Of a stretch of 64,000 nt of DNA, positions 1,172 through 40,865 are shown one piece after another. The notes under the pieces are model-generated. The model saw nothing but the letters and a program-made list of their open reading frames with translations. It was not told the origin of the DNA and searched no databases. Within the stretch, counting starts at the first letter, position 1. Every line of letters starts with the position of its first letter. The stretch spans positions 50,031,317 to 50,095,316 of the forward strand of contig NC_088867.1 in assembly GCF_032884065.1 (NCBI RefSeq), in the 5' to 3' direction. The position numbers and the translations under genes were made by a program. This DNA comes from Artemia franciscana. Taxonomy: Eukaryota > Arthropoda > Branchiopoda > Anostraca > Artemiidae.

Positions 1172-1854
1172 CTTGACAGCATCCATCCATGGCAGAATTA
1201 GACGAAAGTTCTAGTTTTGGCTTTTGATAGTTCATCTTAGATAAACAGTCAGGAAAATCAAATCCAGCAGTTTCATTCGAAATATGACCCTTCGCAATTA
1301 AATGTTCCTTTATATTATTAACATTTGGACATAAACAAATGGGACACTTCTTTTTTTTAACAGCTTCATGTTTTATATAATGGAGAACAAAGTTTGAGTA
1401 GTTCTTTATTTCTATACCACATATTTCACATTTAAACGACAGTCCTGTTTCACAATTTGTGGACTTATGCAATTGCAATAAATAAAAAGACTTTGCAATC
1501 TTCCCACAAGCATTGCATCGCCATTTGCCAACACTCGTCTCTTCAATTTCTCACAAGCATTGCATCGCCATTTGCCAACACTCGTCTCTTCAATTACTAA
1601 CAGCATTGCATCGCCATTTGCCAACACTCGTCTCTTCAATTTCCCACAAGCATTGCATCGCCATTTGCCAACACTCGTCTCTTCAATAGCGAGTTTTGTT
1701 AGCCTTTTTATCTGAACAGTTGTTCTTAAATGGATTTTCTCGAGTTGCTTTGCTTGTTTGGATGGACTAGCCAACCAAATAGTTTCTGGTGCACTTAACA
1801 AATCCATACGAAATCCACTAGGTTTCTCTTGAGAACAACCATTGCCAACACGAC
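1172..1854 (-). CDS. zinc-finger exon (paralogue of the 3420-3959 exon), frame broken by a 140-base tandem expansion
   Basis: An internal exon read from splice sites. The acceptor is CTTTTCTTGCAG before 1854 and the donor is CAAG|GTATTT after 1172, entering and leaving in phase 1. It has a finger-like start (WRCNACGK), then QLHKSTNCE, then C-x2-C...H-x3-H (KCEICG...HYIKH) and C-x2-C...H-x5-H (KCPICLC...KEHLIAKGH). These match the 3420-3959 exon position by position. The exon is 683 bases, which does not preserve phase. Removing the three extra 46-47 base units at 1505-1690 leaves 543 bases (181 codons), which does. As it stands the first half (EETSVGKWRCNACGK) is out of frame with the second (KSFYLLQLHKST). 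This is either a broken allele, an exon skipped in splicing, or an assembly error. It is probably nuclear and nucleic-acid binding, by family. Confidence 0.7.
1505..1690 (-). repeat. four-copy 46-47 base tandem repeat inside a zinc-finger exon
   Basis: The motif GCATTGCATCGCCATTTGCC recurs at spacings of 47, 46 and 47 bases (anchors at 1510, 1557, 1603 and 1650). On the coding strand each unit spells EETSVGKWRCNAC in one frame and LKRRVLANGDAML in another, so the frame alternates along the array. The excess over one copy is 140 bases, not a multiple of three. Confidence 0.92.
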
Positions 1855-3419
1855 CTGCAAGAAAAGATGAAAATGTCAGCCCGTTGAATTATCAGTTAGT
1901 ATTGCCTATGACCAATACAAGTCAAATTAACTTTGAGTTGGAAATCGAATGCAGGATGAAAAACTGTTATGAACATAGCAAAATACAGTTATGAAAAAAA
2001 ACAGAATGAATTGCAAATTTGAATAATTTAATGCCCTCTCACATATGAAACACCCCCCTCCCCCTACCCTCCTTTCGAAAACAATGTCTATTCTTACCAA
2101 AATCAAACAGTTCACTGACATTTCTTGTTAAAATTCAGAATTTACATTGCACATTTGAATATAAATTAGTACACAAATAAAAGCTACGTTTGTTGGGAAG
2201 GGAAAATCTTTCCTGGGAGTGAGAGGGATTGAGTCAACTAAAATATTCGTTCTTAAGCTCTAAATTACAGGCGCTATTTTGCGCAACTCAAAGGAGAAAA
2301 TTCCCCTCTCGTTTCCTTCAAGGCATGATGTGTGGTAAGGGAATAAAACCTTGTTGGAACATCAGCTGTAATATAAAACTATAAAAATTATATATTAAAA
2401 AAGGTGCAGTTCACTCTGACTGATATGCATTTGATCTGTGTGTCCTGTCTCTACAAAGACACGATAAATCTAGTCACCCTTAAGGAAAGGAGAGCAGAAA
2501 TTTCCTTGCATTTTGCCCACAATGCCGTGCATAACCCTCGTACAACTTTTCTTTTCCCTAGCAATCCTTGACCCCCCAAACTCGCCCCCCACGTTTTACT
2601 TCAAGAAAAATGTCCCTTTTTGCCCCAATAAGAGTTTCCACTGAAAGATATAGAAAAAACGTTCATCCCTCACATAGCTACATTTTAAATAAATAATCCC
2701 ACCCTTCTCACTCTACTTTTATCTTAGAGTTCTAGTGTTTATTTTGTAATTGCAAACTTTGTAATGCTTTCCAGATAGACTTTTGTATAATTTTGTTTTC
2801 CCTGTTTTTTTAATTTTACGAGTATTGGTTGCAATTTTATAATTTTGTATTGACACTAAAGTGCGAATTCGGCCCTTTTGGGCTTGTGATAGCCACTTTT
2901 TTAAAATAAATCTTATCTTATCCTGCAAGTACAATACGTGATATAGCTATATTAATCCTTCTTTAATTATAGCCCTAGAACCACATTTTCCGTACAGCTC
3001 ATTGTTTTATACATCTTTCCGGCGATATATCGATTTTTTTTAAACATATTGCTCAATTTTTTTTAATATAAATCTGATACATCTTATTTTTTGAAAAATC
3101 TTTCAGGCGGCAGCGAACGCTCATCAGGTCGGCGAAAAATTTGAATTGAATCCACACTAATTGGCATTAGCTCAGTAATTCTCTTTAAATATTTCCTGAA
3201 ATTCCCAACTTACTAACCATATCTAATTGTGAGTTATAGCAGACATGCGTTTTGACAACTTGGGTGTTTTTTTTTTTTTTTTTTTTTTGCTGAATTCCCT
3301 TGTCAGAATTGATATTTTAATGCAAGAAACTTGATAAAAAAAAAAAAATCCTCTTTTTTCCAAAATTCCCAATACAAGAAGATTAATATACCTTTTTTTT
3401 ACTTCTACTTTCAACTTAC
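1855..3419 (-). other. intron between the two paralogous zinc-finger exons
   Basis: No coding sequence is recognised. About 2690-2925 looks like the 3' end of a dispersed element ending AAATAAATCTTATCTTATCC; a related end occurs near 25010. There are homopolymer T and A runs at about 3268-3288 and 3336-3348, just downstream of the neighbouring donor. Confidence 0.55.
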
Positions 3420-3959
3420 TTTTGAGATTGCCAGTGTTACGAGTCAGAATTGACTTCGATTGCAGCTGACGCTTCCGTGGCAAATTTTTAGGCATTTTTT
3501 TTGCTTTAGAATCAGTCGAGGATAAGGACGGTGACATGTGACCAGCAGAAAGTATATGCTCCTTCATATTGTCAATGTTCTTGCACAAGCAAATTAGGCA
3601 CTTCCGTTCTGTTCCTGCTTCGTGCTCCAGAATATGTATAACAAGGTCAGGAAAGTCTTTAATCTTAACGCGGCACTTATCACAGTGGGATGGTAAATGT
3701 TTCTCACAAAGTGTGCTTTTATGAAGCTGAAGTAAAAGAACAGAATGTTGCACCTCTTTACACAAATCACATTCTAGTGTAGTAACATGAATGTCCGTGA
3801 GCTTTTCCTTATGCATGCCATTCGTCGATACATTAGGCTTGGGAGACTCTACCTTTAAAGGGTCCAGTTCAACAGGAGAAGACACTGCAATTTCTGGTAA
3901 TAACATAGTAGTTTCAACTGGAAACGAAAGTCTATTGCAGCTGGGTGACGCCTCTTCCT
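3420..3959 (-). CDS. C2H2/C2HC zinc-finger exon of the bHLH/zinc-finger gene
   Basis: Internal exon of 540 bases (180 codons), phase 1 at both ends. Acceptor TTTACCTGTTTCAG, donor AAAA|GTAAGT (near-perfect consensus). The first third is acidic and proline/serine-rich (EEASPSC...PVELDPLKVESPKP). Three metal-binding patterns follow: LECDLCKE...QLHKSTLCE (C-x2-C...H-x4-C), HCDKCRV...HILEH (C-x2-C-x12-H-x3-H) and KCLICLC...KEHILSAGH (C-x2-C-x10-H-x5-H). A basic tail comes next (KAKKMPKNLPRKRQLQSK), a plausible nuclear localisation signal. The paralogous exon at 1172-1854 comes next in the transcript, so the fingers arose by exon duplication. Reading on past the donor gives low-complexity sequence, which supports the splice. 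Target DNA or partner is unknown. Confidence 0.8.
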
Positions 3960-6220
3960 CTGAAACAGGTAAATGAAAAGAAAAAATAAAAACAACAAAT
4001 AATACACTATACTGCCATTTATTTCACAAGTTTATGCTCTCAAGACCTCTATATATTGGTAATTATATTAAAAAAAAGTATTTTCCTCCCAATTTATCCC
4101 TTGTTGCCCTGGGAACATTGACACGGTGGTAGTGCAAAACTTTTTGGACGCAACGGTGGGGATAAAAGAGATGCTGACGGTATATTTTATGAGGAGCTAT
4201 CAGTCATTTATTAGTCCAGCATATGGGATAAATTTTACGGTGATTATGAAAGTGTTTGTGGAGGGAATATTCAAAGATATACGGGGGAGGTTTGTAAAGC
4301 TGGAGAAAATGAGAATTAATATTGAAATAGAGGAATCACGACGGCCACTATTGTGGGTCAAGCCCGACTACCAGAAGCATAGCTAGCCATCTCTTTGTAG
4401 GAGTAGAATAGGAGAAGAATACATATTTCTGATATTATGGGCTGCACACTATTGCATGGTCCTGTTGAAACAAGGTCCAACATGCTTCTGTCTCGGAGAA
4501 CAGTTTCTGATGGAAAGAACGGGTATCAGAGGGGTTAAAGACCCAATCTGTGCCTCCAATGGTATAGCTTCATGATTCTTCTACAAAAGATTTCACACAC
4601 CTACCTTTCTACCAGGCAGCTGCCAGTGAGGACAAGCCTTATATACACTTAAAAGGTTGGGAGTGGATGCTAAGGACTATAGTCAATAATTCCACCATAC
4701 GAATTCAAAATTCATATGGTGTCAATTTTTCTGTTGGAAAATTGACAGTGGGGGATGATGTCACATTGCATGATTCCAAATTAAAAAGAATTCTACCTGC
4801 CAGTCTTTTTATTAGTAAGTTGACAGAGAAAAACGACTAAATGGAACTGATCAGGAATACATCAATTCAGTACTTGGCTTTTATTTACACAAAAGCAGTC
4901 TGCACTAAGTCTGCATTTCAACACCTAGTCAGTCTGCACTTGGAACTGATTTAGGATTTAGCTTTCAGTCTACAGTAAAGTGATCCATCTCCAAGTTTCA
5001 ACACCCTTCTCTTCTATATTTTTATATTTCTGACAATACTTTAATTTTTTCCTTTCCTTTCTAAGTGATACAATTTTTTCCTTTCTAAGTGATATATTCT
5101 CAAAATTTGAGCTTCAAAACAAAACGTTTCCTCTTAACAGCTTTGGCTTGAAAGTCGCTTTGTATGCTTTATTTGGGTCTTTATCACAATGTTCTAAATT
5201 TTGAATCATAACAATACTGAAAGATGATCCAAAAGAACAAAAATGAATCCTATGGATGTTGCTGATAAATCTAAGCAAAATGAAAAGACTACATGGATAT
5301 GTAGGTTTATTTTCACTTAATCTAGAATAGATGCTAATAAACAATTTATATACAATTTTTTCACAGCTAGGTTTTAATAATTGTCTCAGCATATTTATTA
5401 AGGTATGCACTAATAAATAAACTTAGCTTTTTTAGCCTTCTGGGATAATCTAGAGCTCAGGTCACTTTCTATTTATTCTTTATTAATCAAAAAGGAACAA
5501 TTTAAATTTTTATTCAGCATAATTTGCGAATAAAAAAGACATACATTATTTTTGACAAACAAATAAGCTTCCAGGTGGGGATAAGTTCGTTCATTAGACA
5601 GTGAAAACAGATACAGAAGCCTGGATTTTTCGACCACATATACAGTGGTCAACATCAGCAGAAAGACTATAGTATTAAAATTAAACTAACATACTTATAG
5701 AGAACAAAATAATAGCTTCCGGTTCATTCATTCTAATAACTTCCAGAAGTTATTATTTTGTTCTATATGAATATGTTAATTTTAATTTTGATACTTTAGT
5801 GTTTCTGCTGATGACGACCGCTTTATATGTGGTCAAGATATCAAGACTTTTGTATCTGTTTTCACTGTCAAACAAATGGACTTATAATCATTTGAACGTT
5901 TATTTTTTCGTCTAGAAAGGCAGCGTGGACTTGGAAAAAAAAAATACCTAGTTGAAGGTATTACGTCAAAAATACATTATTTTTGAAACGCAAAACAGAT
6001 TCGATGATTGCTCATACCAATGAAAGGAACGATGCTATCACTTTCCATTAGGTATGAGACCAAGCGCGTCAAAATACCACTGTTATCTTGATTTTACCTG
6101 AATAAACAAAATTTAAAATATACAACAAGGCTTTATCTAATAGAATGAAAACTACCTGGTGTTAAGGAGTGTTTAGACACAAGAGAATTTCTTTTATATT
6201 CTTTCATTTAAAAAGCATAC
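3960..6220 (-). other. intron
   Basis: No coding sequence I can defend. A plus-strand ORF at 4126-4386 has no recognisable domain and no splice or promoter context. A foldback element lies at 5577-5890. Confidence 0.55.
5577..5890. repeat. foldback (long imperfect inverted repeat)
   Basis: The arm at about 5577-5725 (including TTTCGACCACATATACAGTG and CATCAGCAGAAAGAC) reappears reverse-complemented at about 5745-5890 (TTTCTGCTGATGACGACCGC, TATATGTGGTC, TCTGTTTTCACTGTC). The arms are about 140 bases with scattered mismatches around a spacer of about 25 bases. No ORF. Probably a non-autonomous foldback transposon. Confidence 0.8.
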
Positions 6221-6367
6221 CTTCTTCCTTTATAGTAAATGAGCCAACGTGTAACAGAGTTGGGGTGCAAGACATACTAACATTACAAGCTGAGGTGCTC
6301 TTAACATTATCCATATCAGTGCGCAAAATAACGTTCAATGGCTCATCAGCTTGGATGTGAATGGATT
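6221..6367 (-). CDS. small acidic linker exon of the bHLH/zinc-finger gene
   Basis: 147 bases (49 codons), phase 1 at both ends. Acceptor CCCTTTCTCTTTTAG; donor GAAGAAG|GTATGC. Only this frame is open and phase-compatible. It reads ESIHIQADEPLNVILR near the start and GSFTIKEE at the end, with no folded domain recognised. IKEE fits the SUMO-attachment pattern (hydrophobic-K-x-E), and the exon at 40715-40865 ends in the same IKE(E). It joins the bHLH exon (9171-9303) to the zinc-finger exon (3420-3959) without breaking frame. It was found from splice sites because it is too short and lacks a start for ordinary ORF calling. Function: linker or regulatory region (inference). Confidence 0.65.
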
Positions 6368-9170
6368 CTAAAAGAGAAAGGGAGTGAATAGCTCATAAAA
6401 ACAATCCAGAACTTCTGGATGTTTTTCTCTGGAATCTAAAACGGGTGGGAAGTTGGAAAACAAAACATAAGAAACGACTCCTCATGGAATTTTCGAAAGA
6501 AATCGGGAGTCTTGCACAACCTGGGAAGATGAAGGATGAAAAACTGTTTAATACATGCCGAACTTCAAAACCATTTTTCAAAAGAGAAGGAAAATGGTGA
6601 CATATAATTAATAGGATACTATGCAGTATAAAGTATTCAGCCAAAAAAAAATTATAGTAATATATGATTTTATAACGAAACTTTATAGTAATTTTATGGT
6701 AATTTTATAGAACTTCTTACAGTATTGAAAAAAATTACAGTGAAATAAATTTTTTAACTGATGAGCTTTCGAAAATTAATTTCAATGTGTATCAAAGATT
6801 CAGATTCATTTTATTAGTTCTTTCCAAGAACTGTCCGAGACACATACAGTTTTCAAACGAATTATATTACAAATATTCTCTTTTGTACTTTTTAAAACAT
6901 TGAAAATAAAAATTAATATTATAGTAAATTAAAATGTTGAACTAATGAACTTTCAGCAATCAATATCATTATTTATCAAATATTCCGTTTAATTTTATAA
7001 GTTCTTTCCAAGACTATTCAAGACACAGTTTTCAGTAAAGGACCAAAGTCTACACACTAGGCTTTAGACTTTTACAGTTAGGGAAGGGCGCAGTATCTTA
7101 ACTCTTGTTTCTAGAAATTTGTGTCCGTTTTAAGTTTGATTTGAAAATTAAATCTAAGTTTTGCTCGTTTTAAGATTTGTTTATTCATTTATATTAGAAC
7201 CTGTTGTATGTTTGTTTGCTAAAATGTTTATTTAATTTCTGCTCGTTTTGGGATTCATTTATTATTTAATAGTAATTTCAGATCGTTTTGAGTTTGAAAT
7301 ATTATAGGAATTTATTTGTGCTGATCTTAAGTTTAATATGGGCTTCATTCCCTTTGAAAAACTTTTTTTCGGAAAGTTTTCTTTTTAATAATTTCTGCTC
7401 GTTTTTGACTACCAGGTATTTAGTCAACTATGGCCTCTATTTTAGGGATTAAAGATTTACATAAATTATTTCTTCTCAGGGATTTGCCTTTTGGAGAAAA
7501 AATTATACACTTTTTTTTAATTTTCTTTGAAAGTCTATTTTAATTTCTATTCCTTTTTTAATACTGAATTTGGTTTTAGTTTGGCTTTGGTTAATATTTT
7601 GAACATTTCTCCGGTTTTTCATTTTTCTAGCGTAAGAATTAAAATGTCTAACTCTAATTGAATAGTTCTTATTAGTGACGTTTTATTTATTTCAGTACTC
7701 CCTTGGTATTACCCGGAATTTTCAACTAAATGCCATCAGATGTTCCTGGCACATTTCAGATACGCACTTCTGACAACCTAGATGCATATAGTATTTTTGG
7801 ATTGAATATTCTGATCCTTAGCGCTCCTAAGATATTTCAGATATACTCTGTTGATGACATGGATGCACATGATGTCTTATTTTTAACTTAAAATCCCCTT
7901 AAGCATTCCCTGAAGGTTCCAGTAGTGTTCAACATACCCTGAACGTTTCAACTAAATGGCCTCAGCCGTTCCTAAAATATTGCTGATACGCCCTTTTGAC
8001 AACCAGCATGCATAAATGTGTTTTGATTTTGTTCAACATACCCAAACATTATCTGAAAGCACTCACAAGTAAATGTAGTACCAGGTGCAGGCAGTCACAA
8101 GTTGTTACAGTCGGAAGTAGCCACTATTTCAGTCACAACTAGTCGCATTTGCAGCCGCAATACTAGAAGTGGCGGCTCTGAAAGCTTCAAGTTAATGCCC
8201 CTGCCGGTTCCTAAAACATTGCAAATATAAATTTTTGATAACATGGATGGAGACGGTATCTTCTAATTTAGCTCACCATACCCTTCAACATTCCACAAAA
8301 TTTCATTTCAATGCCCTTAATCTTTTCGGACGCACCCATGATCTAACGTTCCATCCTTTCTCAATGATAAATCCTATATGTTAAAAATGGAAAAATTGTA
8401 TAATTTGCAATCCTCGCCCCGGGGGCTGTGGGGGCATTTGACTTGCAATCAAATGAGCCTCCTCCAAAGTTTCTACGACCAGTCTTCCCATAAATCCTCA
8501 AATGCCCTCAGAATATAACTTATGACCCTTGTACACAAGTGCTGTGGGGTTTTGTCAACCCCGAAGGCATTGTCACATGACCTTTGGACTATTTTGTACA
8601 AAACACCTATCTCAAAATTTTGATAAAATACAATTGCAGAAAAGAGCGCATGGGGGTGGGGCTACTTGCCCTCCGATCAGTTTTGACTCTTAAAAATGAA
8701 ACTATAACTTTCAATATCCAATCAAATGTGCTTCCTTCAAAGTTTATACGACCACCCTTTCCATAAGAACCTTATATGCCCCCGGACATAACTCACACCG
8801 TTGCCCCGAGCTGTGGGGAGGAGTGATCGTGAAGACTTCTCTGGACTCATTAAACTTTAGCAAGTACTCTATTCCAAAATTGAAGAAGTTCTATAGACTC
8901 AAATATAAATATCCAACGTAATAAATGAATTGCATCAGATTTGGTGCTGGAATTTTCATCCTGATTGCTTTGAATGTTTTCTAATAGTTCAAAAAGCTGT
9001 TCGAAATGAGCTTAACAGCTACAACTCAAGCAATTCGTCTATTGTTTGTTTTTAAACTGTTCCACCTAAATATTATCCAATTTCCTACTATACCTGACAT
9101 TCTTCATATATTTTGTCTGTTGCTTTATCTAAATCAAAGTTGTGTCCATCCACCAGAAATTATCACTCAC
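6368..9170 (-). other. intron, mostly AT-rich, with family C repeat
   Basis: Highly AT-rich to about 7700, with repeated phrases such as TCTGCTCGTTTTGG. Family C repeat fills the rest. No gene seen. Confidence 0.55.
7720..8880 (+). repeat. family C dispersed repeat
   Basis: The same wording recurs in the same orientation at 42560-43080, 47560-49030 and 52280-52700: phrases such as CATTCC(C)TGAAAGTTTC, CTTAATACCC, CAGCTGTTCCT, GATATTGCAGATAC and ACCTGGATGCA. Within a copy the phrases repeat every few hundred bases with heavy divergence. A short stretch at 8090-8170 is GTCACAGTAGT-like and minisatellite-like, and is mirrored at 42980-43080. It encodes no intact protein. Class unknown. Confidence 0.65.
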
Positions 9171-9303
9171 CTCTCTTAGAGACCATTATTTTCTTTGGAG
9201 GCTCTTGCAACGTGCCATGTACGACATCTTGAAAGTGATGATCAGATGATAAAAGGTCAGCAAGGGAATTTATGTAGCCAATAGTTAATCGGAGAGTTTC
9301 CAG
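9171..9303 (-). CDS. second half of the bHLH domain (Ptf1a/Fer-like)
   Basis: 133 bases, entering in phase 0 and leaving in phase 1. Acceptor CCTTTCAAATTTTAG; donor AGAG|GTGAGT (perfect consensus). It begins LETLRLTIGYINSLADLL, which is helix 2 of a bHLH domain and resembles the LSK-(V/I)(D/E)TLRLAIGYI...L pattern of the Ptf1a/Fer group. It completes the domain begun in the 18183-18424 exon, which ends KKLSK in phase 0. After the helix comes PPKKIMVSKR, which resembles the short conserved box that follows the bHLH in Ptf1a proteins. The later conserved C-terminal motif of Ptf1a (VWTPEDP-like) was not found. Without splicing the frame would stop three codons later, so a short bHLH-only form is possible. 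Role: DNA binding and dimerisation in the nucleus, by family. Confidence 0.85.
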
Positions 9304-9674
9304 CTAAAATTTGAAAGGTACAAGATGATTAGCCTGGTGAAAATATTACGATCTCCATTTAGAGTGAAAAATCACATAGATGGTGAACTTTCAATTCTTG
9401 CTAAAAATTTTCTGGAAAAATGAACAACTTTTTACGTAGCAACAGTATAAAAAAAAAAAAAGGGATGAGAAGAAAAGAACATTGTTACGCCCTTAATGCC
9501 ACTGGCATCATTATTAGGAACTGACTTTTCGAATTCTAGTATTCTTGTTTTCAATGACTCTGATAAAAAGAATGACTTCAAATAATTTCCATCCATTATT
9601 TGGTTTTCAGCCATTTTATACCAGTTTCTTTTGGCCTGAAAATTGGATTTGAATACCTACCTCTGATGAACCTA

Positions 9675-10615
9675 GGCAATTTGGAAACCTCAAACCCACT
9701 TCTACCTCCAAGTACCTTGTTTCTCTCATCGACTACATTGGGAAAATCCTCAAAAAGCCTAATTCCTGGCTAAACTTAATTTCCATTGACCTTCAAAAAG
9801 CATTTGACCTTGTTAACCTCAATATATTAGTTGAGAAACTTGTCAGTGAATTCAATATCGATTCTTTCCTGAGGAATTTGGTTGCCTCCTTATCAAATAG
9901 GTAATAGTAAATACCAAAAACATTATGTCCGATCCTCTCCCTGTCCAAAATGGAATACACAAAGGTACTCCCCTAGGTCTCCTCCTTTTTCAGATATGGT
10001 TAAGAGGCTCGCTACGGAATTTCCTGGCAGACGGAAACTTGTCAATGACCTAACGATTGTTAAAACTTGCTTAAGAAATTTAATAAGCAACCCTATGAGC
10101 ATCCTCAAAGAAATTGGAGATTATGCATCGTACTTGGACATACGAGTAAACCCGTCTAAGTCTACTATGATGCTAATATGTTTTCTTAAATCCTCGCCCC
10201 GTTTTATTGATTCTATCCCTCCTGAAATATCAGGCTTAAGGAGGGAGTCTATCTCCCTCCTTAAGCTCCTTATTAAATTGAGCACCCTCCTTCCTATTCC
10301 TCCGAAAAGAGCCATCCGAAAAGAGCCCTGAAAATATTTTTCAAAGAAGGTGAAGTGCTATACTCTCTGCTTCTAAGAAAAGCTTTGCTGGGAATCCACG
10401 AGCGCAAGAGTTACGTTGTGCCTTCATTTTGCAAAAAATGCAATAGCAAACCTCGCGAAGAAAACATTTTACCTTAACGTCACTCCCATCCAGACTTCGG
10501 CTGCCTCGAGCTGCTTTTGAATCCACTCTTATTGAGTCCCCCACTCACTGATTTACCCCCAGATATTAAAAACCTTTGCCCCCTTCATTACAAAAATAAA
10601 TAAATAAAATATCTC
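9675..10615 (+). pseudogene. decayed non-LTR reverse transcriptase fragment
   Basis: Around 9700-9905 one frame reads SKYLVSLIDYIGKILKKP and then ISIDLQKAFDLVN, the RT motif with the first catalytic Asp. Shifted frames continue with GIHKGTPLGLLLF (a PQG-like motif) and later NDLTIVK, ASYLDIRVNPSKST, resembling the (F/Y)ADDxxI and NPxKS regions of CR1/Jockey-group LINEs. Stops and frameshifts separate the blocks, and the endonuclease is absent. The 3' end runs into an AATA-rich tail near 10595-10615. It is a dead 5'-truncated insertion in the bHLH intron, in the opposite orientation to the gene. Confidence 0.7.
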
Positions 10616-10791
10616 GCTAGTTTCTCCTTTTTTTATTGGAAAGTATTGCTGCCCAGGTTTTCGTATTTATTCGCTTCTTATGACCCCCCCCCCCATTTTT
10701 AGTGCTACTTTTAACTTTTTTTTATATGTATTTATTTATTTGTAGTTAAGTTTGTTCAGTTTTTATGGTACTTGGTACTAATTAAATAAAT

Positions 10792-16099: not shown

Positions 16100-18060
<1,961 letters not shown>

Positions 18061-18182: not shown

Positions 18183-18424
18183 CTTAGATAGCTTTTTTTC
18201 ATCTGGCAACGTAGGAATATGGCGTCTTAGGCCCTCAAAAGCGTGGTTAATAATCTGATTTCGTTGCCTTTCTCTTAAATTTGCCACATGACGTAACTGA
18301 CCAGCTGTTCTTTTTCTTCCTCTCCACGACTCCTCATGGCAATAATCGGAATAGTTGTTAGTTAGTTCTTCGTTCTTTCTACTATGGAACGAGCAAATGC
18401 TTTCATCATCCAAATATTCACATT
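18183..18424 (-). CDS. first half of the bHLH domain (Ptf1a/Fer-like)
   Basis: Internal exon of 242 bases. Acceptor GTTTCGACTTTCTAG, entering in phase 1; donor CTAAG|GTTGTA, leaving in phase 0. There is no Met before the domain, so the start codon lies in an upstream exon. After an acidic stretch ([12 protein letters not shown]) comes the basic region and helix 1: [46 protein letters not shown]. The ERxR core contacts E-box DNA, and NxAFEGLRxHIPTLPxEKxLSK is the signature of the Ptf1a/Fer1 group. Two changes are unusual against my memory of that group: ERQRNQIIN in place of ERRRMQSIN, and Asp in place of Tyr in TLPDEK. Helix 2 is in the exon at 9171-9303. Orthology to Ptf1a/Fer1 rather than Fer2 or Fer3 needs a tree. 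Confidence 0.9.
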
Positions 18425-19055: not shown

Positions 19056-19134
<79 letters not shown>

Positions 19135-21110: not shown

Positions 21111-23329
21111 ATAATAGAGGAATTATTAATGTTATTCAAAGTAAAAACAAAACACACATTTTTTAGTTGTGAGGAGATAAGATAGAAAGAACATATTGGA
21201 TTTATAAAAAATGCATCTTTTGTTTTTGATGTTTTGATGACAAAAAACAAATCTGGCGTTGCTTACAAATTTCAGATAATAAATTGTTACTTTGATATCC
21301 AGAAGAAAAGGAAGAAATATAAAATAAAAAGATATGTGGAAAATGAGAGAAGAAAAGAGGTTAAGTCTTCTTCGGTCAAAAGGAAAGGAGAAATCATAGT
21401 TTTACATTTCTGTTTTAAAAAGTATACTGTATTTCCACTGTTTTACTAATTCATTTTCTTAAGCTATTCAGACTATTACTTATTTCTGGAGAGCAACATA
21501 GCCTGTCTGTTTAAAGGTGGATCAAGTGTTGCTTTGGGCCAACTAATGCTAAGCGACAAATCTAAACAAACAAGGAACGCGATTTCTAGGGCATCTTTTT
21601 TAAACTTTATTGGTCTTTTTGCGAGAAATATTAAGTCTTAAAAAGAACAAGAAGTTTTGAATCATGACATCTTTTGCAAATAAGCTCTCTGTTTCTCTGT
21701 ACTTTGACGTTGATAAAGAATACATTTGAACCTCTTGAATGACGAATATTTTTTGCAATTAGCACTGTCTTGCTGAAGCCCTAGACTCCTTTTTCCAAAC
21801 CTTTAAGGAGACGACAACTAGATTATAATCATTCCTTGTTAGCAGCTCCTGAACTCATTTACTCCAGGATGCTTTATTTCTTTTTCATAAAATCTGGCTA
21901 TCCTGAATTTCTACCCCCTTCCCTCTATAGAAAAATTTATATAGATATATCAACCTTGATATATTCCAAAGGACCCTAACTAGCCTAATAGCTTCTTCAA
22001 CGGCATTCACAGAAAAAAAATATAACATATATTCTTTAGCGGTTGAGATGGAAGGCATTAAGGTATTAGCCTTTACAGTCCTTATCGGCGGTAATAATCT
22101 CCGTTTCATGGCCCTTCAGCCGGGAAAAGGTGAAGGGCCAGCCATCCTTGTTTTGGCTGGAGACCAGCCATCCTATACTTTCGCACATCCTTCCTGTTTG
22201 CCTTCCTCAGATTTCTCCAGGTGTCCTTTAGAGCTAAGTTGATTCTGGCTGACTTTGGGGGACTAAGGAAAATAGTTTACCTAATTTCCGCCAGTATTCT
22301 ACCTTCGTTTTCAAAACATACGTCATTTTCAGTAAATCCCAAGCAACAATTCGGCCTTTAGGGGTATGAGGAGGTGCTAAGCACCACTTTAAAATTCTAG
22401 TTCAAGTTTTTCCTCTATTTTTTTGTCATGGAACTACTGTAGCGGAGGATGGCAACCAAGATATCGTTCACCAGCCTTGATTTTAAATTATTTTCAACTC
22501 AGTATTCACACCCTTTTGCACCTGTTTCGGAGGAAGTTAATCTATCTAATTATGCTTTTCTGACCAGGTTTCACTTACTTAATAAATACTAGTTTATTAT
22601 TATTGCTTAATAAATACTAGTTTCACATACTTAATAACTACTAGGGTGATTAAGATTGAACAGACGATACAAGAGTCAAAATCCCCACTAAAAGATAGCC
22701 TATAGATTTATTTCTGTCCGGCGATGTGACAGTGGGGAGAAGGGGGAATATAAGACAGAATCAGCTCTTGAATCAGAAAATTAATAAAATATATACAGCA
22801 AGTTACGCAGTAGTCGGACAGCTAATCACCGATTGAACTATTAAATCCTTGTAAAATCTCTATTATACCACCTAGAAATTAGATTATTTCAGCATTGAAT
22901 TCATCTAAATGGTTTTAATGAAAATGCAATTAGCATGAATATTTTAACCATAGACAATGCTGAACATTTGAAAGATCATATCTTACCATATACCTGAAAT
23001 CACCTAAGGTCAACACAAGTACAAGGCGCACTTCCATCCGAAAAAAAAAAACAATTAGAAAAGTATACTACTACAAGATATGTCACTTTACATGCGGGTG
23101 CAATAACCCAGCTGACAGATGCAATAAAATAATCTGCCTCCCCCTTACGTAAAATTTCTATTTTTACGATGCAAGATCACATTGTAAGTTCTTCAGAGAA
23201 TACAGTTTTAATTTCCCACGTAGCAAGCTCGTAGAGACACCGCACCAGTTCTATCTCGATACTTTATAAATCTAACTTAGTCACGATTTAGAAAATTTTC
23301 AAAATGTCCTTCTCATCTCTCTTTAGCTC
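21111..23329. other. no recognised feature
   Basis: No domain or repeat family from elsewhere in the window was recognised. A few short ORFs (21234-21449, 22048-22242) lack recognisable domains and splice context. Confidence 0.5.
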
Positions 23330-24180: not shown

Positions 24181-24187
24181 TGATGTT

Positions 24188-28219: not shown

Positions 28220-28434
28220 TAGGGGAGACTTGGAGCGCTTGGGACAGGTCTATACTTGGGACAGCACCTTCATCTACAAGATGCCATCTAGCATTCACAA
28301 TGGTGTTTTGCCCTATGAATAACTTCACTCATAGGTGACGTGTGCATAAATTTTTATTTCAGTAGCCCACGTAGTTGTCAAGAGAGAGGTAAACAAAGAA
28401 TTTGTTCACCTTTTTGTCACCCCCAAAGACCTAA

Positions 28435-31735: not shown

Positions 31736-31744
31736 CTGCATTTG

Positions 31745-32478
31745 GTTGTATGAGACTGGTTATCAAGGAGGCACACTCGTGCCTCTATAAAGAGGCGAAC
31801 CACGACAATGTTAAGCGATCTTCGGTTCCAGTGGTCGCAGAGGGATGGGGAGGGATGCATTTCGTAGCCCGAGCTCCAACTAAGAAACCTGCCAAATTTC
31901 ATCCCCCTCCGACTTTTCCTTCATGGGGCAAATCTGGCCGAAAGTTTCGACCCACCAACCCCAGCCCCCCTTTAACGTTGTCCGATCGGGCTGAAATTCA
32001 CAATTTAGGGTCCCCTAGGGCCCAGGAGCTTATCCGCGAAATTTCAGCTCGATCCGATAACTCCTTCCCTGTTTTCCAGAAACCACGCATAGCCACTTAA
32101 TTTTCATATTCTTTTTTTTCCTCGACGCCTACAGGTCACAGCCGACATCGGATCTGGGTGTACGAAGACTCATTCGATGCGGAATTCTCCGAGTAAGTTT
32201 CCTTGAAAGTTTCGTAGGAAAATCTTAACCCCCCGAAAGTTTCGACCCCCCAACCCCACCCTCCCCCCCTTTAACGTTGTCCGATCGGGCTGAAATTCAC
32301 AAGTTAAGGTCCCCTACGGCCCAGGAGCTTATCCGCGAAATTTCAGCTCGATCCGATAACTCCTTCCCTGTTTTCCAGAAACCACGCATTAGCCACTTAA
32401 TTAACCCATTTCTCCATAAGAGCCCATGTTAATTTGAAATTTTTAAAATTTATTTAAAAGTTATATTTACACACATGC
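31745..32478 (+). repeat. family E direct repeat, two copies
   Basis: A block of about 165 bases (CGACCCCCCAACCCCA, AACGTTGTCCGATCGGGCTG, GAGCTTATCCGCGAAATTTC, CAGAAACCACGCAT) occurs at about 31935-32100 and again at about 32235-32400. An adjacent block with GACTCATTCGATGCGGAATT recurs at about 32650, inside the inverted-repeat element. So this stretch is probably part of, or derived from, the same element family. Confidence 0.7.
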
Positions 32479-32552
32479 AGGTGGTTAGCTTAGTCGGTAG
32501 AGCGTGGGACATTTAATCCTCGGGTCAAGGGTTCAAGTCCCTTATCGGGCGG
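32479..32552 (+). tRNA. tRNA-Lys(UUU)-like sequence, probably a pseudogene or SINE head
   Basis: The D-arm (TTAGCTTAGTCGGTAGAGC) is followed by a loop CATTTAA placing UUU as anticodon, and by a perfect T-stem and loop (AAGGG TTCAAGT CCCTT). Pol III A-box and B-box-like sequences are therefore present. The acceptor stem fails: 5' AGGTGGT does not pair with 3' ATCGGGC. It lies 14 bases left of the inverted-repeat element. Not a functional tRNA on this evidence. Confidence 0.55.
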
Positions 32553-33017
32553 TTTTTTTTCACAAAATATGAAAAAAACCGTCTTCTTAAAGAGTTAAAG
32601 AGGCTGCGTCCCAAAGTCGAACCTTAAAACGTACAGGAATGTACGAAGGGTGTATGAAGACTCATTCGACGCGGAATTCTCCGAGTAATTTTCCTGGAAA
32701 GTTTCTTTGGGAAATCTTAACCCCCCGATTTTCTAGCTTAGAAAAACCCATTTCCCCATAAGAGCCCAGGTTAATTTTTGAAATTCTTAAAAGTTACGAA
32801 TATCAACATTCAAGTACATCAAAATAATCAGCTCGGCACGGCGAGAATGACTGCAAGCATCATAAAAATCCAGCTCCATTCCAGAAATTAAATTATGTAA
32901 TTGGAAATTCTCCTTGATTGGAAATGTTTTCCAAACTGAACGCAGACGCCATCTAGCATATCAGAAATGAACTTCCTAAACGCCATCTGTCCTTTTTTGA
33001 GAGAAAATTCACAATTT

Positions 33018-33540
33018 ATCTGGATAGAATTGTATCAGCTGAACTTGGGCCAAGTTAGGAAAGAGAGATCTTCTACAGCAGAAGATTAGATTTCCGAAGC
33101 TAAGTACCAGACTAGGCTATCTATCATAATTAATATTTCTCTTGCCTCACCTATCTGGATAGAATTGTATCAGCTGAACTTGGGCCAAGTTAGGAAAGAG
33201 AGATCTTATACAGCAGAAGATTAGATTTCTGAAGCTAAGTACCAGACTAGGCTATCTATCATAATTAATCTTTCTCTTGCCTCACCTATCTGGATAGAAT
33301 TGTATCAGCTGAACGTGGGCCAAGTTAGGAAAGAGAGATCTTCTACAGCAGAAGATTAGATTTCCGAACCTAAGTACCAGATCTATCATAATTAATCTTT
33401 CTCTTGCTTCACCTATATGGATAGAATTGTATCAGCTGAACTTGGGCCAAGTTAGGAAAGAGAGATCTTCTACAGCAGAAGATTAGATTTCCAAAGCTAA
33501 GTACCAGATCTATCATAATTAATCTTTCTCTTGCCTCACC
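33018..33540 (+). repeat. four-copy tandem repeat of 127-135 bases
   Basis: Units start at 33018, 33153, 33288 and 33415 (ATCTGGATAGAATTGTATCA, then CAAGTTAGGAAAGAGAGATC and CAGCAGAAGATTAGATTTCC). Each unit ends TTTCTCTTGCCTCAC, which resembles a polypyrimidine tract; the last is followed by CAG|GTC. The array ends about 15 bases before the first ATG of the unknown ORF, so it may carry a promoter or splice acceptor. Confidence 0.92.
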
Positions 33541-34466
33541 AGGTCTTTTCTACAATGCCAAGCAAAGCTTGGCAACTAAAGCAGAAAATGAAAAGTAAGT
33601 ATGATGAGAAAAAACAAGAAATTAGCGAGATAAAAAGGAAATACTACCAGGAAAATAAGGACCGAATCAAGGAGGATGTAAAGAGCCGCTTTCAAACAAA
33701 TGAGACGGCAAAGGAGCGTAACCAAACAAAAGCTTTGAAAAGAAATTTCAAACTGTATGCAGCATCACAAGATTATCGCTCAAGGAAAAAACAGGCAAGC
33801 CTCACTCAGTACAACAACCACAAGGACAAATTTTCACAACTGTTTGGTGACTACTACAAGAGAAACAGGGACATTTTGACTGCAAAAATATGGGTGAGAA
33901 CATAGATAAAAAATGGTACACCATCACCCCTGTCGCGAACCAAACATGGAAAAAAAGGTAATAAAGCGCCACCCGCAGCAGAAGCTACCAGCATCTCATT
34001 TTCTGCATGCTACTGTCATGCTACAGCATTCAAAAAAGCTGTAGAACACAGAATGGCGAATGATATAATTTTGTCCCAGAGATCGCGCGTGAAACAAAAG
34101 CGACACAGACAGTATTATTTGGGAGAAGCGCGTAAAGTACAGAAAATGCAGAATGATTTAAAGGAGATGCAACAAGTTCTGAATATGCACTATTGCAACA
34201 CGGAAGACTCGAAGGAAGCCATAAAATTGGAATTTGCACATGCAAACAATGTCATAGAAATGGCAACAAATTCGCTCGCAAAGCGACATGCGCTTAATGC
34301 AGCAAAATGCGAAAAATTTCTCGACAACTTGCCAGAAGACGAACCCCCAACCCTTGAAGACTTTACAACAGCTATGGGTAATTTGAGACAACACAGTGAG
34401 TACACAGAGCCATATTTTTATGAAACAGCCCACACTAACTACGGAACTAATATCTGTCGCGTATAA
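33531..34466 (+). pseudogene. unknown lysine/glutamate-rich protein, one in-frame stop
   Basis: Two ORFs (33531-33905 and 34053-34466) are in the same frame and joined by open sequence, interrupted only by TAG at 33903-33905. The first credible ATG is at 33555 (MPSKAWQLKQKMKSKYDEKK). The N-terminal half is a highly charged probable coiled coil (EIKRKYYQENKDRIKEDVKS). The C-terminal half holds QRSRVKQKRHRQYYLGEARK, another helical stretch, and LDNLPEDEPPTLEDFTTAMG near its end. Charged repeats of this sort occur in accessory proteins of large DNA transposons, but I cannot name a family. The protein lies inside the 2.2 kb inverted-repeat element and is probably its own gene. The stop could be a mutation or an assembly error. 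Confidence 0.5.
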
Positions 34467-34467
34467 T

Positions 34468-34652
34468 AGGGCTGCCGCCCCCCAAACCCCCCACTTTTAA
34501 AGACTCTTTTGTACAGGTTTTTTGTTTTGTTAATTAAAAGAGGGCCTTTCCGAAGCCAAGAGCGGGGGGTCAGGGGGGCGGCAGGGCAGCCCCCCACAAC
34601 AAAAAAACCTGTATAAAAGAGTCTTTAAAGCGGGGGGTTTGGGGGGCGGCGG
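34468..34652. repeat. GC-rich inverted repeat after the unknown ORF
   Basis: The left arm GCTGCCGCCCCCCAAACCCC...TTAAAGACTCTTTTGTACAGG (34470-34520) pairs with CCTGTATAAAAGAGTCTTTAA...GGGGGGTTTGGGGGGCGGC (34607-34652). The arms are about 50 bases with a loop of about 85 bases. It starts just after the stop codon, so it could act as a transcript end hairpin or be an inner element boundary. Confidence 0.8.
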
Positions 34653-35399
34653 ACCCCAACTGCCTCTCCTAATTCCTGTACGTTTTAAGGTTCGACTTTG
34701 GGACGCAGCCTCTTTAACTCTTTAAGAAAACGAAGTTTTTTTCATATTATAATGTGTAAGAATTGCATTATTTATTATAATTGTGTGGTATATGAATTTT
34801 AATTGCTGTTTGACAATGCATAGTTGCAGTATTTTGATTCCTGTTTTTCAACGCATGCAGTTGCTGCAGGCGAATAACCCCCTTCTATTAGCAAGTCAAG
34901 TGATACTGTTCTGGTTCAGTGAATACTGACTGAAGTGACACCCAAACAAGCTAGTGATTATAGAAGGCACAGAACAACTGAGTGATACAAACGCATATGA
35001 CCTATTGGTTGAACACATCAAACCCTAAACAACAATAGCAACAAAGAATTTGTAAGTGTATTTTCTAAGATTTCCGAAATCTGTGTAGTTAGTTGCGAAC
35101 GCACCATTGCAGATATTTACAAAAGAATAGGACTATGTATTGGTGATGGACATTGAAATGATGTGTAGCCAGGAGTATCTGCATTATCTACTGTGAACAC
35201 TAAGCTATATTTTTTTGTATCAATACACACCTTAATTTATACTTGGGACATGTCCCAAGTAGTAAGAATATAGAATCTACAACCAAATCTTAAATTATGT
35301 CCCAACTAGATCTCTTAGTACTTTTCATGATTAATTCTGTTCACACCCTGACTAGGTAAACTCAACCTCTAAGTTCTAACAGCCTTTTTTTCTAGTTTT

Positions 35400-37353
35400 T
35401 ATTAACAAGGGGAAGAAAAACCCTTGAGGCGAGTCATACCAGTCAATGAAGGAACCTTGAGGCGAGTCATAGCAGATATTTTGTCAAAAAAGTAATCTGT
35501 ACAAGAAGCTGTTAAAATGTGTGGCCTGTCCAAAACTTCTCTACATAGGCACCTGACTTCCCACATGACAAACTCTAGTAGAGATGCAGTCAATACCCCT
35601 TTTATATGCCAGTCAAAAATAACCCACAACAAGATTTTGACCACTGAGCAAGAAACAGAGCTGAAAAAATACCTGATTGAGGCATCTAAGCTACATTATG
35701 GGCTTGGAATTTTTGAAGTCAAAACGCTAGTCTCTGAATATGCCAAGAGAAATGGTATATCTTACCCTGCAGGGTGGGATGCCAAACAACAGGCAGGGGC
35801 AACTTGGTATTACAGCTTTATGGCTAGAAATCTGTCATTTAGCTTAAGGACACCAGAACAAACCAGCCTTGCAAGGGCTACAAGTTTCAATCAACGTACA
35901 GTTTCCATATTCTTTGACAAACTGAAGGGCATCATGGGAAAAATTCAGATTTCAGTCTCAGAATATTTGGAATATGGATGAATGTGGCCTGACCACTGTA
36001 TAGAAGGTTGCTGCCGAGTCAGGGGTTAGACAAGTTGGAAGGAGCACTTCTGCAGAGAAGGGCCAAACTGTTACAATTCTAGCAACTGTGTCAGCTCTTG
36101 GAAACACAATTCTCCAGTCCTGGATTTCCCAAGAAAAAAAGTGACCCCCAGAATGACCATGGGAACACCCACTGGAACTCTGGCTTTTCGAGGAGGTGAA
36201 AGTGGATGGACCAATTCTTTAATCTTTGTTGAGTGGATGAAAAACTTCATATCCTATGCACGTCCACAAGCACAGAATCCCTGTCTTCTGATCCTTGACA
36301 ATCATGAATCCCATCTGTCAATTAATGCAATACAGCTAGCAAAAGACAATCACATCATCATACTAACCGTTCCATGACACACCTTGCACAAATTGCAGCC
36401 ACTGGACAAGACTGTGTTTATCCTGTTCAAGCTTCCTTACAACAGAGCAATTCCAAACTGGATGGTGAATACCTAAGCATTCCAGTTTCAATTTATGAGA
36501 TACCTTGGTTCCTTGGACAGCATACTCACTGAGTTTTACTATGAGAAACATGGTGTCAGGATTCTGTGTTTCCGGGATTTCACACTTTAACAATGACATA
36601 TTCACTGATGATGAATATGCACCATCTTCAATTACAGATAGGCCAAAACCTGAAGGTACAACTGGCAAAGGGAACAGTTGAGCCACCGTCGGACTCTGAT
36701 ACAGAAGTTGGTAGCAATGTCTCAACCATCAAGCCTATACAGCTGTAAACCACCCCTCAAACTCCCAAAGGAGTACAAACAATGGATCCTTCCAGTGCTG
36801 TATTACCAGGTGACATTAGACCATTCCCCAAAGCTGGGCCAAGAAAATTTAGAGGTGGAGTTAGAGCTCAAGGGTGTTGCCAAGTGTTGACAGACACATC
36901 CAAGAAAAAGAGAATTGAAGAAAAGGCAGTTGGACAGATTAACAAGAAAAATCAAACTGCATCAAAGGTGAAAAAGCCTGCCAAAAAGGTGTCAGCAAAG
37001 AAGTTTGGCAGAAAACTGAAATATTCCACCATTTCTTTATCTGATACATCTTCAGAAGAATATCTCATGAAACCATGGAGAATCAGATTGATGAAATGGA
37101 GATACAGAGTGGGGACTTTGTCCTTGTCATGGGAGATAAAAAACATGGAAAGAAATTTTACAGTGTAAGAGAAGTTGTCAAAGTTGGTGAGAACAAGGTT
37201 GAAGTCTGCTACTTTAAAAGGGTCACTCCTTTTCAGAAATATGTAGCTACAAAAGCTTCATACCAGTTTGAGAAGTGGCAAGCTGCAAAGAAGCTGCCAA
37301 ACCCAGAACCAACTGGCAAACTGAACACCAGGCCAGACACTTCATTTTTCTGA
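35400..37353 (+). pseudogene. pogo/Tigger-like DDE transposase, inactivated
   Basis: In order there is a helix-turn-helix (AVKMCGLSKTSLHRHL, about 35510-35560), a second DNA-binding region with GISYPAGWDAKQQAGATWYY, and then the DDE_1-type catalytic core. Asp1 is in QNIWNMDECGLTTV (GAT at 35977), Asp2 in CLLILDNHESHLS (GAC at 36297) and Asp3 in KLQPLDKTVF (GAC at 36404). The C-terminal part has SGDFVLVMGDKKHGKKFY and VEVCYFKRVTPFQKYV. Breaks include a TAA upstream of the HTH, a frameshift near 35960, stops after Asp1, and TGA at 36376 where the family has PPHTSHKLQPLD. All three catalytic Asp codons survive but the gene cannot be translated whole. It lies within the inverted repeats at 28222 and 37723. 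Confidence 0.8.
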
Positions 37354-37914
37354 TTAACATGTCTGTATATAATATATTGCAAAAATTCTAAAATGTAAAC
37401 CTTTTTATATTTTTGTAATATTAAATGACTATATTTGACTTTAAAAAAAGATGGAAACCTGGGCATCCCAAGTATTAAACTATGTCCCAAGTATAAAACA
37501 ATCTAGTCCCAAGCATAAAACTAGTTTTATACTTGGGACATTTGAGAGCTTCTGCTGAATTACTTTTTTGGTCAAGTTCAAGATGACTTAGAAAGCTGAG
37601 TTTTGGGCCAGACATTCTCCATGAAGTTGCCTATATTACCAAGCAGGATTTATCCTTACTGCTGAAATGATTTGCAATCAGTGACCATTAAAAAAATTCA
37701 TCCCAAGTACTCCAAGTCTCCCCTATAATTTGCTTTTTCAAACAAAGCTTAGTCTTGTGTTACAAGAACATAAAGTCTGTACGCCCTATGGTTTGGATAC
37801 TTCATTGTAGCCTAACTTTAAGGTCCCATTTCCAGGATTAGGCTCAGGCTTAAATTCTTTGTCCAATGTTGACTATTAGTATATTTAAAATTATTAGGCT
37901 AGTGATCAAGACAA

Positions 37915-38475
37915 AATTAAGACAGTTCACATAACTGTATTACCAATAAAGTGAACATACCACTCAATGCCTATTTTTATGTTCTTTACAAATACAATAA
38001 TTGCTTCTACTGGAAATTCAAATTTAAGTACTTTTTGAGCTCTTAAATGATGAATTTTCAAAAAATTATGACAGTTCATATAACTGACTCATCAATAAAG
38101 TAAACATACCACTTGATGTTTTTTTTATGTTCTTTACAAATATAATAATTTCTTCTAATGTAAATTCAAATTTAATCACTTTCTGAGCTCTTAAAAATGA
38201 CCAATTTTCACTTAAAGTATGAGTTATTGCTTGTTTTGGACAAAATAATACTATGTTTTCTCAGCACCATCTTTTCTTGGTTGTTTTCAAAACAATAATG
38301 CTACATTTTCTCAGTGCTAAAATTACTTACAAAAAGGTTAGTTTAGGTTGGGTTAAAAAGTGCTTAAATTTGAATTTGCTGTAGAGGCAATTATTATATT
38401 CATAAAGAACATAAAAAAAAGGTATCAAGTGGTATATTCACTTTATTTGTAAGTCAGTTATATGAACTGTCATAA
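37915..38475. repeat. three copies of a 120-145 base AT-rich repeat, two direct and one inverted
   Basis: Copies at about 37918-38060 and 38068-38205 are direct (CAGTTCACATAACTG, AAAGTGAACATACCACT, TTATGTTCTTTACAAATA, GAAATTCAAATTTAAG). A third at about 38360-38475 is inverted. Just outside the CR1-like LINE fragment further inverted matches occur (about 38605-38660 versus 40352-40400). Confidence 0.7.
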
Positions 38476-38880
38476 ATTTACCATGATCTATGTGTTAAAA
38501 TATTGAAGTTAATCTTATAAGTTACATAGCATATAAGAAAATTTTGAAAACTTGAACAATTAGACTATCTGCTTTCTAGGGGGTTTAGACCTAATAATTT
38601 CGGTAAACATTTATATTAATAGATTACTCAGATAGCTAAGAAACAAACTTATCTCTCTAGTCAGAATTGCATCCTGAATCAAAATTTAACATTCATTTGC
38701 ATTAGAAATGAGCTTTATTGTCACCCTTATATATTCCAACTCAAGGTAGCCTATATTTGCATATTTATTTATTATTAGGAATAGTGGTAAGCATCAATGC
38801 TTGTCACAAAAACATAATACTAATCTAAAGTAAATTGGCAACAACAAACTAAACAGCAAAAACTTCTAAATAAAACGACA

Positions 38881-40130
38881 CTACACAACAAAAGCATCTA
38901 AATAAAAAGGTATATTTACTAATGCACTCTTAAAATTTTGAACACTCTCTGCCTCAACAACCTCCAAAGGCAAACCATTCCATGGTCTGGCAACTCTACT
39001 AACAAAAGATAATTGACCAATTTTTTTCAGTGGTTTTGGAGGATATAATTTATAATCATGCTGATGAGTAGAGTGATAATGGCTAAATTCAAAAAATAAA
39101 TTTGGATCAACATCATCCACTCCTTTAATTATACAAAACACATTTACAAGGTCATTGCAATGTCTACAAAACTTCAACAACGGGAGTTGAAGCCTAGAAA
39201 GTCTCTGCAGATAAGAAAGGCGCTGAAGGTATGGGACCAATCTAGTGGCCCTTCTCTGAACCTTTTCTATCCTATGCTCATCTGTTAGACTTAATGGAAA
39301 CCAAACAGAAGTATTATACTCAAGAAGAGGGCAGACCATTGATTTGTATAGTAGTAAGAAATTATGAAGGTTAAACCTACTAAAGCTTCTCCTTATAGAT
39401 GATAAACGATAATTTGCATTCTTTACAATTTCCAAAATATGCTTATCAAATTTAAATTGGGTATCAAAGTAAACACATAGTGTAGAGTGTAGTATAGAGT
39501 AGAGTGAGCATAGTGTAGAACAACACACTTAGAAGGGTTTATGAACATGGAATTAGATTTGCAACAATAAGTTAGAGAGTCAAGATCCTCCTGTAAAAGT
39601 TGCACATTGTTTTGGTCTTGTACTGGTAGATAAAGTTTTACATCATCCACAAACATCTTGACAGTAGAATGCTGAACAGAGAAAGGCAGATCATTAATAA
39701 ATACACAAAATAAAATTGGACCCAGGCAGCTACCCTGGGGGACTCCACTTAACACATCAATTGAGGATGACATAGCTTCACCAAGAACAACCTGCTGAGT
39801 TCATCCATTTAGATAATCAGCAATAAATGCAATTGTTTTTTTTACCCAATTTATAAGCTGCACATTTTTTAAGAAGGGTGGGTATTGAGACTTTGTTGAA
39901 TGCCTTCAAGAAGTCAATGTAAATGCAGTCAAAGGGTATAGCTAAATTGGCAAAATGTTGAAAATCCAAAGTAACCTCAAGAAGCTGAGTATTATAAGAC
40001 CTATTTTTTTGGAAACCATGCTGAGCAGGATTCCAAAGATGATTTCCATCAAAATACTTTTGATCACGTGAAACAATCAACTTTTCCATTACTCTGCAAA
40101 AAATAGACGTGATTGAAATTGGCCAATAGT
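38881..40130 (-). pseudogene. CR1-like LINE fragment (RT C-terminal half)
   Basis: From about 40090 downwards the frames give HGFQKNRSYNTQLLEV, YIDFLKAFNKVSIPTLLKK (first catalytic region), SGVPQGSCLGPILFCVFIND and KMFVDDVKLYLPV (the F-x-DD variant common in CR1-group LINEs). Then comes the long C-terminal part with SMVCPLLEYNTSVW, IEKVQRRATR and RPWNGLPLEVVEAESVQNFK, which is characteristic of CR1/Jockey-group proteins. Two frameshifts separate three blocks, and the endonuclease and N-terminal RT are missing. A short internal duplication (LQRLSYLQRLSRLQ) is present. Confidence 0.8.
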
Positions 40131-40714
40131 TTTTAAATTAGGAGGTGGGGTGGGAGTAAAGTTCAAAATTACCTCTATAGTCAGAATTGAATCCTGGATT
40201 CAAATTTAAAATCCATTTGCATTGGAAATGACCTTAACTAAACTCCCCATCCTACCCACTTAATGTGTAATTATATACCCTGAATTGGAATATGCCAGGA
40301 ATTGGTATAGCCTAGCCTATATAGGGGTGGGGTAAACTTCTGACAATAGAGGTGAGTTTGTTTCTTAGATAGGCTATATGAATAATCTGTTAATACAGGC
40401 TAAACTATGACAATGATTTTAACAGTTATTTAACCATTGAATCATTGATCATCCAATTGCTGGGTACAGTTTGTGGATAGCTGTTGGATAGGCCAGTTTA
40501 GTCCTTGGTAGCCTACATGTATTGTCACAATAAAATCCATTATGTTAGTAATGTCATGATTAGTGGATCAAATAAGTGAATTTATAAGCCACTAGGCCTA
40601 TTTGTTTGCTATTATTGTGCTTCCTTTAAAAAACCTTGCTCCTTGCTCAAAGAATTTACTACATTGCAACTAAAGAGAAAAGGCTCTAGGCCAAGCCTGT
40701 ACAAATTAACTTAC

Positions 40715-40865
40715 CTTCCTTTATGCTAGAACCCTCCACAGGGATTTTTCTTTCCAAGTCTTCTGAAAGAAGGTTTTTCTTCTTGTTAGAAAGCGACACC
40801 GACTTTCCATTGTTTAGTTCCTTTTGCTTCCATTGTTTAGTTTGCCTTTGAAATGCAAGCGGCTC
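40715..40865 (-). CDS. lysine-rich exon upstream of the bHLH exon
   Basis: 151 bases, acceptor GTAGATTTTCCAG, donor GAAG|GTAAGT. Only one frame is open through the exon (entering in phase 0, leaving in phase 1). It reads EPLAFQRQTKQWKQKELNNG, then KSVSLSNKKKNLLSEDLERK, then IPVEGSSIKE. The outgoing phase matches the bHLH exon at 18424, giving ...[14 protein letters not shown]. The SSIKEE end parallels FTIKEE of the exon at 6221-6367. No Met, so coding must begin further upstream; no phase-0 partner was identified. Low complexity and lack of homology keep confidence moderate. Confidence 0.55.

Follow-up and report, generated by a model that had tools for sequence, protein, structure and literature searches.

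The 64,000-nucleotide stretch of Artemia franciscana DNA analysed here (the window) probably carries two separate units on its minus strand, a truncated duplicate of the Ptf1a/Fer1 gene that has neither its start nor its tail, and an independent zinc-finger gene beside it. Judged from the genomic sequence, the probability of this reading is about 0.6. The first exon of Ptf1a/Fer1, its two bHLH exons and part of its last intron would have been copied, and the tail exon would either have been left out or been lost. The duplicate probably retained its capacity to code through much of its history and, being now without an ATG start, is most likely a relic. The neighboring gene, LOC136027547, would be an independent finger gene, the annotated coding sequence of which begins in the exon at 6367-6221. 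The bHLH copy and the finger gene would then be separate in transcription and in translation, and the bHLH copy is presumably no longer translated.

A sequence-only reading of this DNA had joined six minus-strand intervals into one gene. All six are bordered by AG and GT, and the phases quoted for them are correct. The frame of the joined chain is open in exons one to five and is broken in the sixth (683 nt), within a 47-bp tandem of 4.1 copies at 1496-1687. The features of the locus, in window numbering, are the following.

40715-40865, minus strand: proposed lead exon; no homologue found, no better than chance exons.
22310-22594, minus strand: duplicated Ptf1a first-exon region (head), located by blastn; start codons lost.
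22438-22474, minus strand: head coding exon remnant; second ATG now CTG, open to a phase-1 GT donor.
18183-18424, minus strand: bHLH exon A; phase 1 in, phase 0 out; copy of canonical Ptf1a exon 2.
9171-9303, minus strand: bHLH exon B; phase 0 in, phase 1 out; copy of canonical Ptf1a exon 3.
7233-7367, minus strand: remnant of canonical Ptf1a intron 3, located by blastn.
6221-6367, minus strand: KEE exon; N-terminal unit of an apparently expanded Artemia zinc-finger family and start of the RefSeq protein P0002 (MDNV...).
3420-3959, minus strand: zinc-finger exon 1; three finger-like motifs.
1172-1854, minus strand: zinc-finger exon 2; frame-broken by the 47-bp tandem, related copies elsewhere open.
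1496-1687, minus strand: 47-bp tandem, 4.1 copies.

By these comparisons, the coding homology is genuine for five of the six exons. The limits proposed for the bHLH pair and for the three finger-side exons are upheld by homology, and those of the lead exon, 40865-40715, are not. The agreement of the phases between exons is weak evidence for a single gene, because the bHLH exons have the phases of the canonical gene from which they derive, phase 1 is that of the family to which the finger exons belong, and the lead was picked to fit. The only free match of phase is that between 9171 and 6367, which by our estimate would arise by chance in about one case in three.

The canonical Artemia Ptf1a/Fer1 gene is located on the same scaffold as the window (C5:50031317-50095316), 47 Mb away from it. 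Its product, P0009 (QYM36_013098, 185 aa), is a full-length Ptf1a-type protein with the C-terminal sequence HSISW...LWTPEDPR..., and many of its relatives among the matches listed are annotated PTF1A. It is encoded by four coding exons on the minus strand (C5:2578401-2578360, about 2576.0-2575.8 kb, 2573844-2573713 and 2559559-2559428). The borders and phases of the window exons 18424-18183 and 9303-9171 are identical to those of its exons two and three. The two copies agree in 313 of 372 coding nucleotides and in 95 of 124 aligned residues, and exon A has one 9-bp in-frame deletion relative to canonical exon 2. The Pfam HLH model gives 65.3 bits for the window cassette and 63.9 bits for the joined protein, against 78.1 bits for the canonical one and a cut-off of 20.7. 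The Ptf1a/Fer identity given earlier to this domain is confirmed by the exon-for-exon match.

The likeness extends into the flanks. Blastn aligns window 22594-22310 with C5:2578513-2578214 (68% over 308 columns), which is the only match of this head stretch within the 48 kb compared, and window 7367-7233 with C5:2564939-2564803 in the intron (72% over 137 columns). A genome search (15 matches, 34 candidates scored) finds two Fer1-like loci only, that of P0009 and the window. On this evidence the bHLH pair arose by partial segmental duplication of the normal Ptf1a/Fer1 gene of the species. Given the remnant of intron 3 at 7367-7233, the duplication ends somewhere in the interval from 7233 to 6367, where the KEE exon begins, provided that the tail is not a later loss. 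No match to the fingers or to the KEE exon is present at E 0.01 in the 70 kb around the canonical gene, and that neighborhood was rejected as the source of the fingers.

The window copy differs from P0009 in having no ATG start and no HSxSW/WTPED tail that could be found. Both canonical ATG codons are gone from the duplicated head, the second being replaced by a CTG with A at -3 and G at +4. The head coding remnant is identical to the canonical sequence at 25 of 37 bases, and the block with its flanks at 74%; the head has diverged, on these figures, in the manner of non-coding DNA. There is no in-frame ATG in the head, in the lead exon or in exon A, and the first one of the chain is that of exon B (MVSKR), which is absent from the canonical exon. 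Within 264 kb, tblastn with the Artemia tail and head proteins finds neither, the best E values being 2.2 and 1.8. Searches near the window likewise yield nothing, whether made with the Artemia tail, with tail motifs or with a segment of the human PTF1A tail, and no conserved tail exon was found in the window or in the 100 kb to each side of it. Both HSxSW and WTPED are present in the canonical tail exon. At E 1e-5, P0009 matches 1408 proteins, itself included, out of 1516 candidates, and motifs were counted in the 120 listed. Among the 119 listed matches other than P0009, an HSxSW-like motif is present in 116, a WTPED-like motif in 76 and the C2H2 motif tried in none, in agreement with the earlier statement that proteins of this family end in a conserved tail and have no fingers.

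The finger half of the chain is an annotated gene. Translation of the joined exons 6367-6221, 3959-3420 and 1854-1172, starting at MDNV and ending at the first stop, gives the RefSeq protein P0002, letter for letter. P0002 is isoform X2 of LOC136027547 (358 aa), is without a bHLH and has its own ATG in the 6367-6221 exon; it stands for a cluster of four member sequences, and its isoform name implies an X1. The sequence-only reading, which proposed a single fused bHLH-finger gene, had itself named fingers with their own promoter and a separate start codon as one of the observations that would speak against fusion, and the RefSeq annotation has such a start at MDNV in 6367-6221. Together with the bHLH copy that has no ATG and the lead exon that stands at chance level, it argues against the fused gene.

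The KEE exon scores 24.7 bits against a profile of eight KEE units, and none of 2000 shuffles is as good. The proteins P0006, P0007 and P0008 contain in all eight units, caught by pattern, of the type D-P-L-Q...G-S-F-T-L-K-E-E. In P0006 and P0007 the KEE units are N-terminal, and Pfam finds no bHLH in either. The two finger exons of the window are 39.8% identical over 98 residues, as expected of the duplicated fingers described before, and their fingers score below the Pfam cut-offs. The second finger exon has at least 145 matches in the genome, on many scaffolds (150 of 829 candidates scored), and many of the finger-triplet matches lie in open frames of 400-700 codons. The finger family is large and, by these counts, apparently lineage-expanded. 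The window copy shares the finger triplet with the members P0003-P0008 and the KEE units with P0006-P0008. Its exons are of phase 1, and its N-terminal KEE unit is followed by a phase-1 finger exon. It differs from the family in its extra finger exon (3959-3420) and in the 47-bp tandem that breaks the frame.

A bHLH-KEE-finger fusion through the junction 9171-6367 is possible, as the two exons are in phase. The donor of exon B is GTGAGT, which is a consensus donor form, and the first acceptor of known use beyond it is that of KEE, 2.8 kb away and in phase 1. If exon B were spliced to KEE, the frame would extend to MVSKR (381 aa), and from the head CTG it would measure 513 aa as drawn. P0002 starts in KEE and not at MVSKR, so the P0002 model does not use this splice. 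A bHLH-finger protein is absent from the 7 matches among 6426 candidates of about 323-1029 aa and from the 4 matches among 85 candidates of about 97-309 aa. The 120 matches listed of the 1408 include no second Artemia protein (about 102-324 aa), and among the titles and abstract openings listed in a search of the subject literature none names a bHLH-finger fusion of such kind.

A real chimera, in which exon B is joined to KEE and the protein begins at the head CTG or in a new 5' exon, is favored by the retained donor with a phase-compatible acceptor next to it, by the CTG that replaces the lost ATG in its particular context, and by the 513-aa joined frame. The retention of the frame, of the splice sites and of the generic bHLH positions described below also speaks for it. 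It is opposed by the absence of such a protein from the matches in the lengths searched, by the start of P0002 in KEE and the missing ATG, by a head that has diverged like non-coding DNA, by the chance level of the lead exon, and by the frame break at 1496-1687 in the finger half itself. We regard the chimera as unlikely, yet worth keeping in mind.

The history of the bHLH copy can be followed through its substitutions. Between the window and the canonical gene dS is 0.367, dN is 0.131 and dN/dS is 0.356 (bootstrap 0.19-0.67). The changes occurred mostly on the window copy: at the 28 differing sites that are aligned to at least 20 orthologues, the canonical residue is the commonest at 17 and the window residue at 1. 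In the non-coding blocks (721 nt) p is 0.269, and gap events occur at 0.039 per base. Under neutrality, the joint probability that the frame stays open and unshifted and that all four splice sites remain intact is 0.0002-0.026, where the range spans four assumed rate settings, the indel rate is that of non-coding DNA, and the locus was chosen for looking intact.

None of the 12 changes in the core falls on the 18 generically conserved bHLH positions (P 0.0055). With two local bHLH profiles the core gives 0.0005 and 0.0065 for 12 changes, 0.0015 and 0.019 for 10, and 0.024 and 0.063 for 8; in runs on the whole cassette the value falls from 0.17, with 25 substitutions assumed, to 0.002, with 50. 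The excess is milder with Pfam's own HLH model, in which the best of 60 simulations reaches 71.1 bits against 67.8, and one of the 20 simulations ranked best locally exceeds the window (20 of the 60 being scored singly). Of the 12 core changes, six are at positions where all 119 of the Ptf1a orthologues compared are invariant. Under neutral drift, 505 of 1000 simulations score as well as the window core on the Ptf1a profile, and 285 of 1000 as well as the whole cassette; the BLOSUM62 measure of the core changes is at the neutral median (0.53). Codon positions 1+2 diverge by 0.129, where a neutral branch would be expected to show 0.149. By these tests the generic bHLH positions are spared, less clearly with the Pfam model and not by BLOSUM62, and the Ptf1a-specific positions are not spared. 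The tests are evidence of past constraint; they are not read as proof of present function because several were run and because the locus was picked for its intact look.

The least probable explanation is that the copy has been dead, and drifting neutrally, ever since the duplication. The neutral level of the Ptf1a profile and BLOSUM62 losses, the near-neutral divergence at codon positions 1+2 and the loss of start and tail all agree with it, but the low joint probability of the intact frame and splice sites does not, with the reservations on rates and on choice of locus given above. It is also improbable that the copy encodes a tail-less bHLH protein of its own, starting at the CTG or in another exon and reading from exon B into the intron. 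Such a protein would profit from the same signals of selection, and an in-frame stop (GE stop) is indeed present three codons past the exon-B donor. The canonical gene, however, likewise stops just beyond its donor, so that the stop is no new feature; the donor is still of a consensus form, and the copy is absent from the 4 matches among the 85 candidates of fitting length.

Two separate units, the reading preferred here, are suggested by the canonical gene on the same scaffold with two exons copied at the same borders, and by the presence of only two Fer1-like loci. The loss of both head ATGs, the failure to find the tail and the start of P0002 at MDNV point the same way, as do the lack of a bHLH-finger protein in the searches, the N-terminal KEE units of P0006 and P0007 without a bHLH, the hits at Ptf1a-invariant positions, and the neutral level of the Ptf1a profile and BLOSUM62. 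Counted against two units are the frame and splice sites kept against neutral odds, the spared generic bHLH positions, the dN/dS of 0.356 and the donor GTGAGT. In addition, the protein searches covered bounded ranges of length, a 381-aa isoform could hide in the P0002 cluster, and a rarely expressed factor could be missing from the annotation.

The lysine-rich lead exon did not stand up to comparison. Its DNA has itself as the sole match in the 334 kb searched, and no lead-like stretch was seen by eye in the matching proteins inspected. A diverged KEE exon is ruled out, as the lead translation scores 0.1 bits against the KEE profile and 574 of 2000 shuffles are as good. On the minus strand of 18425-64000, a loose filter, which the lead passes, leaves 30 open exons of out-phase 1 on 6 donors, and a stricter pyrimidine-tract filter, which it fails, leaves 8 on 4 donors. 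The plus strand of the same region has 15 such exons on 2 donors (loose) and 2 on 2 (strict), and for the whole window there are 18 on 8 donors on the minus strand and 5 on 4 on the plus strand. The lead exon is, by these counts, most likely a chance open frame.

If the duplicate is a relic, it adds another case to the truncated gene duplicates. Chimeric genes that arise by truncated duplication next to another gene are a known general kind, and the window likewise has a truncated duplicate with a free splice donor that is closely followed by phase-compatible exons; it differs in that its chimeric splice is a candidate predicted from genomic sequence. In the doubtful case that the Ptf1a duplicate has captured the finger gene, the phase 1-1 bHLH pair, spliced to KEE, would form a bHLH-KEE-finger transcription factor that starts at the CTG or in another exon, is freed from Ptf1a-specific constraint and keeps the generic bHLH positions. 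In a milder form, the duplicate may supply the finger gene with a promoter and with the exon-B ATG (MVSKR). Use of the splice would amount to a new transcription-factor architecture, created by capture of a symmetrical two-exon bHLH cassette, and with both parents still in the same genome the steps would be datable and testable.

Several further elements were observed in and around the locus. The intron between the bHLH exons contains several repeats and, at 9740-9835 on the plus strand and nearby, a frame that we take by its motif to be reverse-transcriptase-like. Some 16.5 kb downstream of the last exon in the window there is a C2H2 array (positions -15352 to -16891, approximately, in window-relative numbering) that has a phase-1 acceptor and matches P0007 and P0008. 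It has one frame change near -16350, through which P0007 and P0008 read, and which is either a sequence error or a genuine break. A terminal exon at 47328-46961 on the minus strand has a phase-1 acceptor, two C2H2-like fingers and a stop, with AATAAA at 46939, 46893 and 46813. Beyond the window and 38 kb upstream of this exon, an open paralogue of the second finger exon is present at C5:50116557-50117099 on the minus strand, which corresponds to about 85783-85241 of the window numbering; in the two parts that were compared its identity is 64-70%.

The finger module is found in other company as well. P0006 and P0008, on a scaffold of 55,982,255 bp, are finger-family models that also carry the nuclear-receptor C4 finger PF00105, so that the annotation pairs the module with a different DNA-binding domain. 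In P0003-P0005, on a scaffold of 41,777,601 bp, the module is N-terminal; two of the three are named EGR2-like by NCBI, and the end of these proteins looks similar to the fingers of JAZF1.
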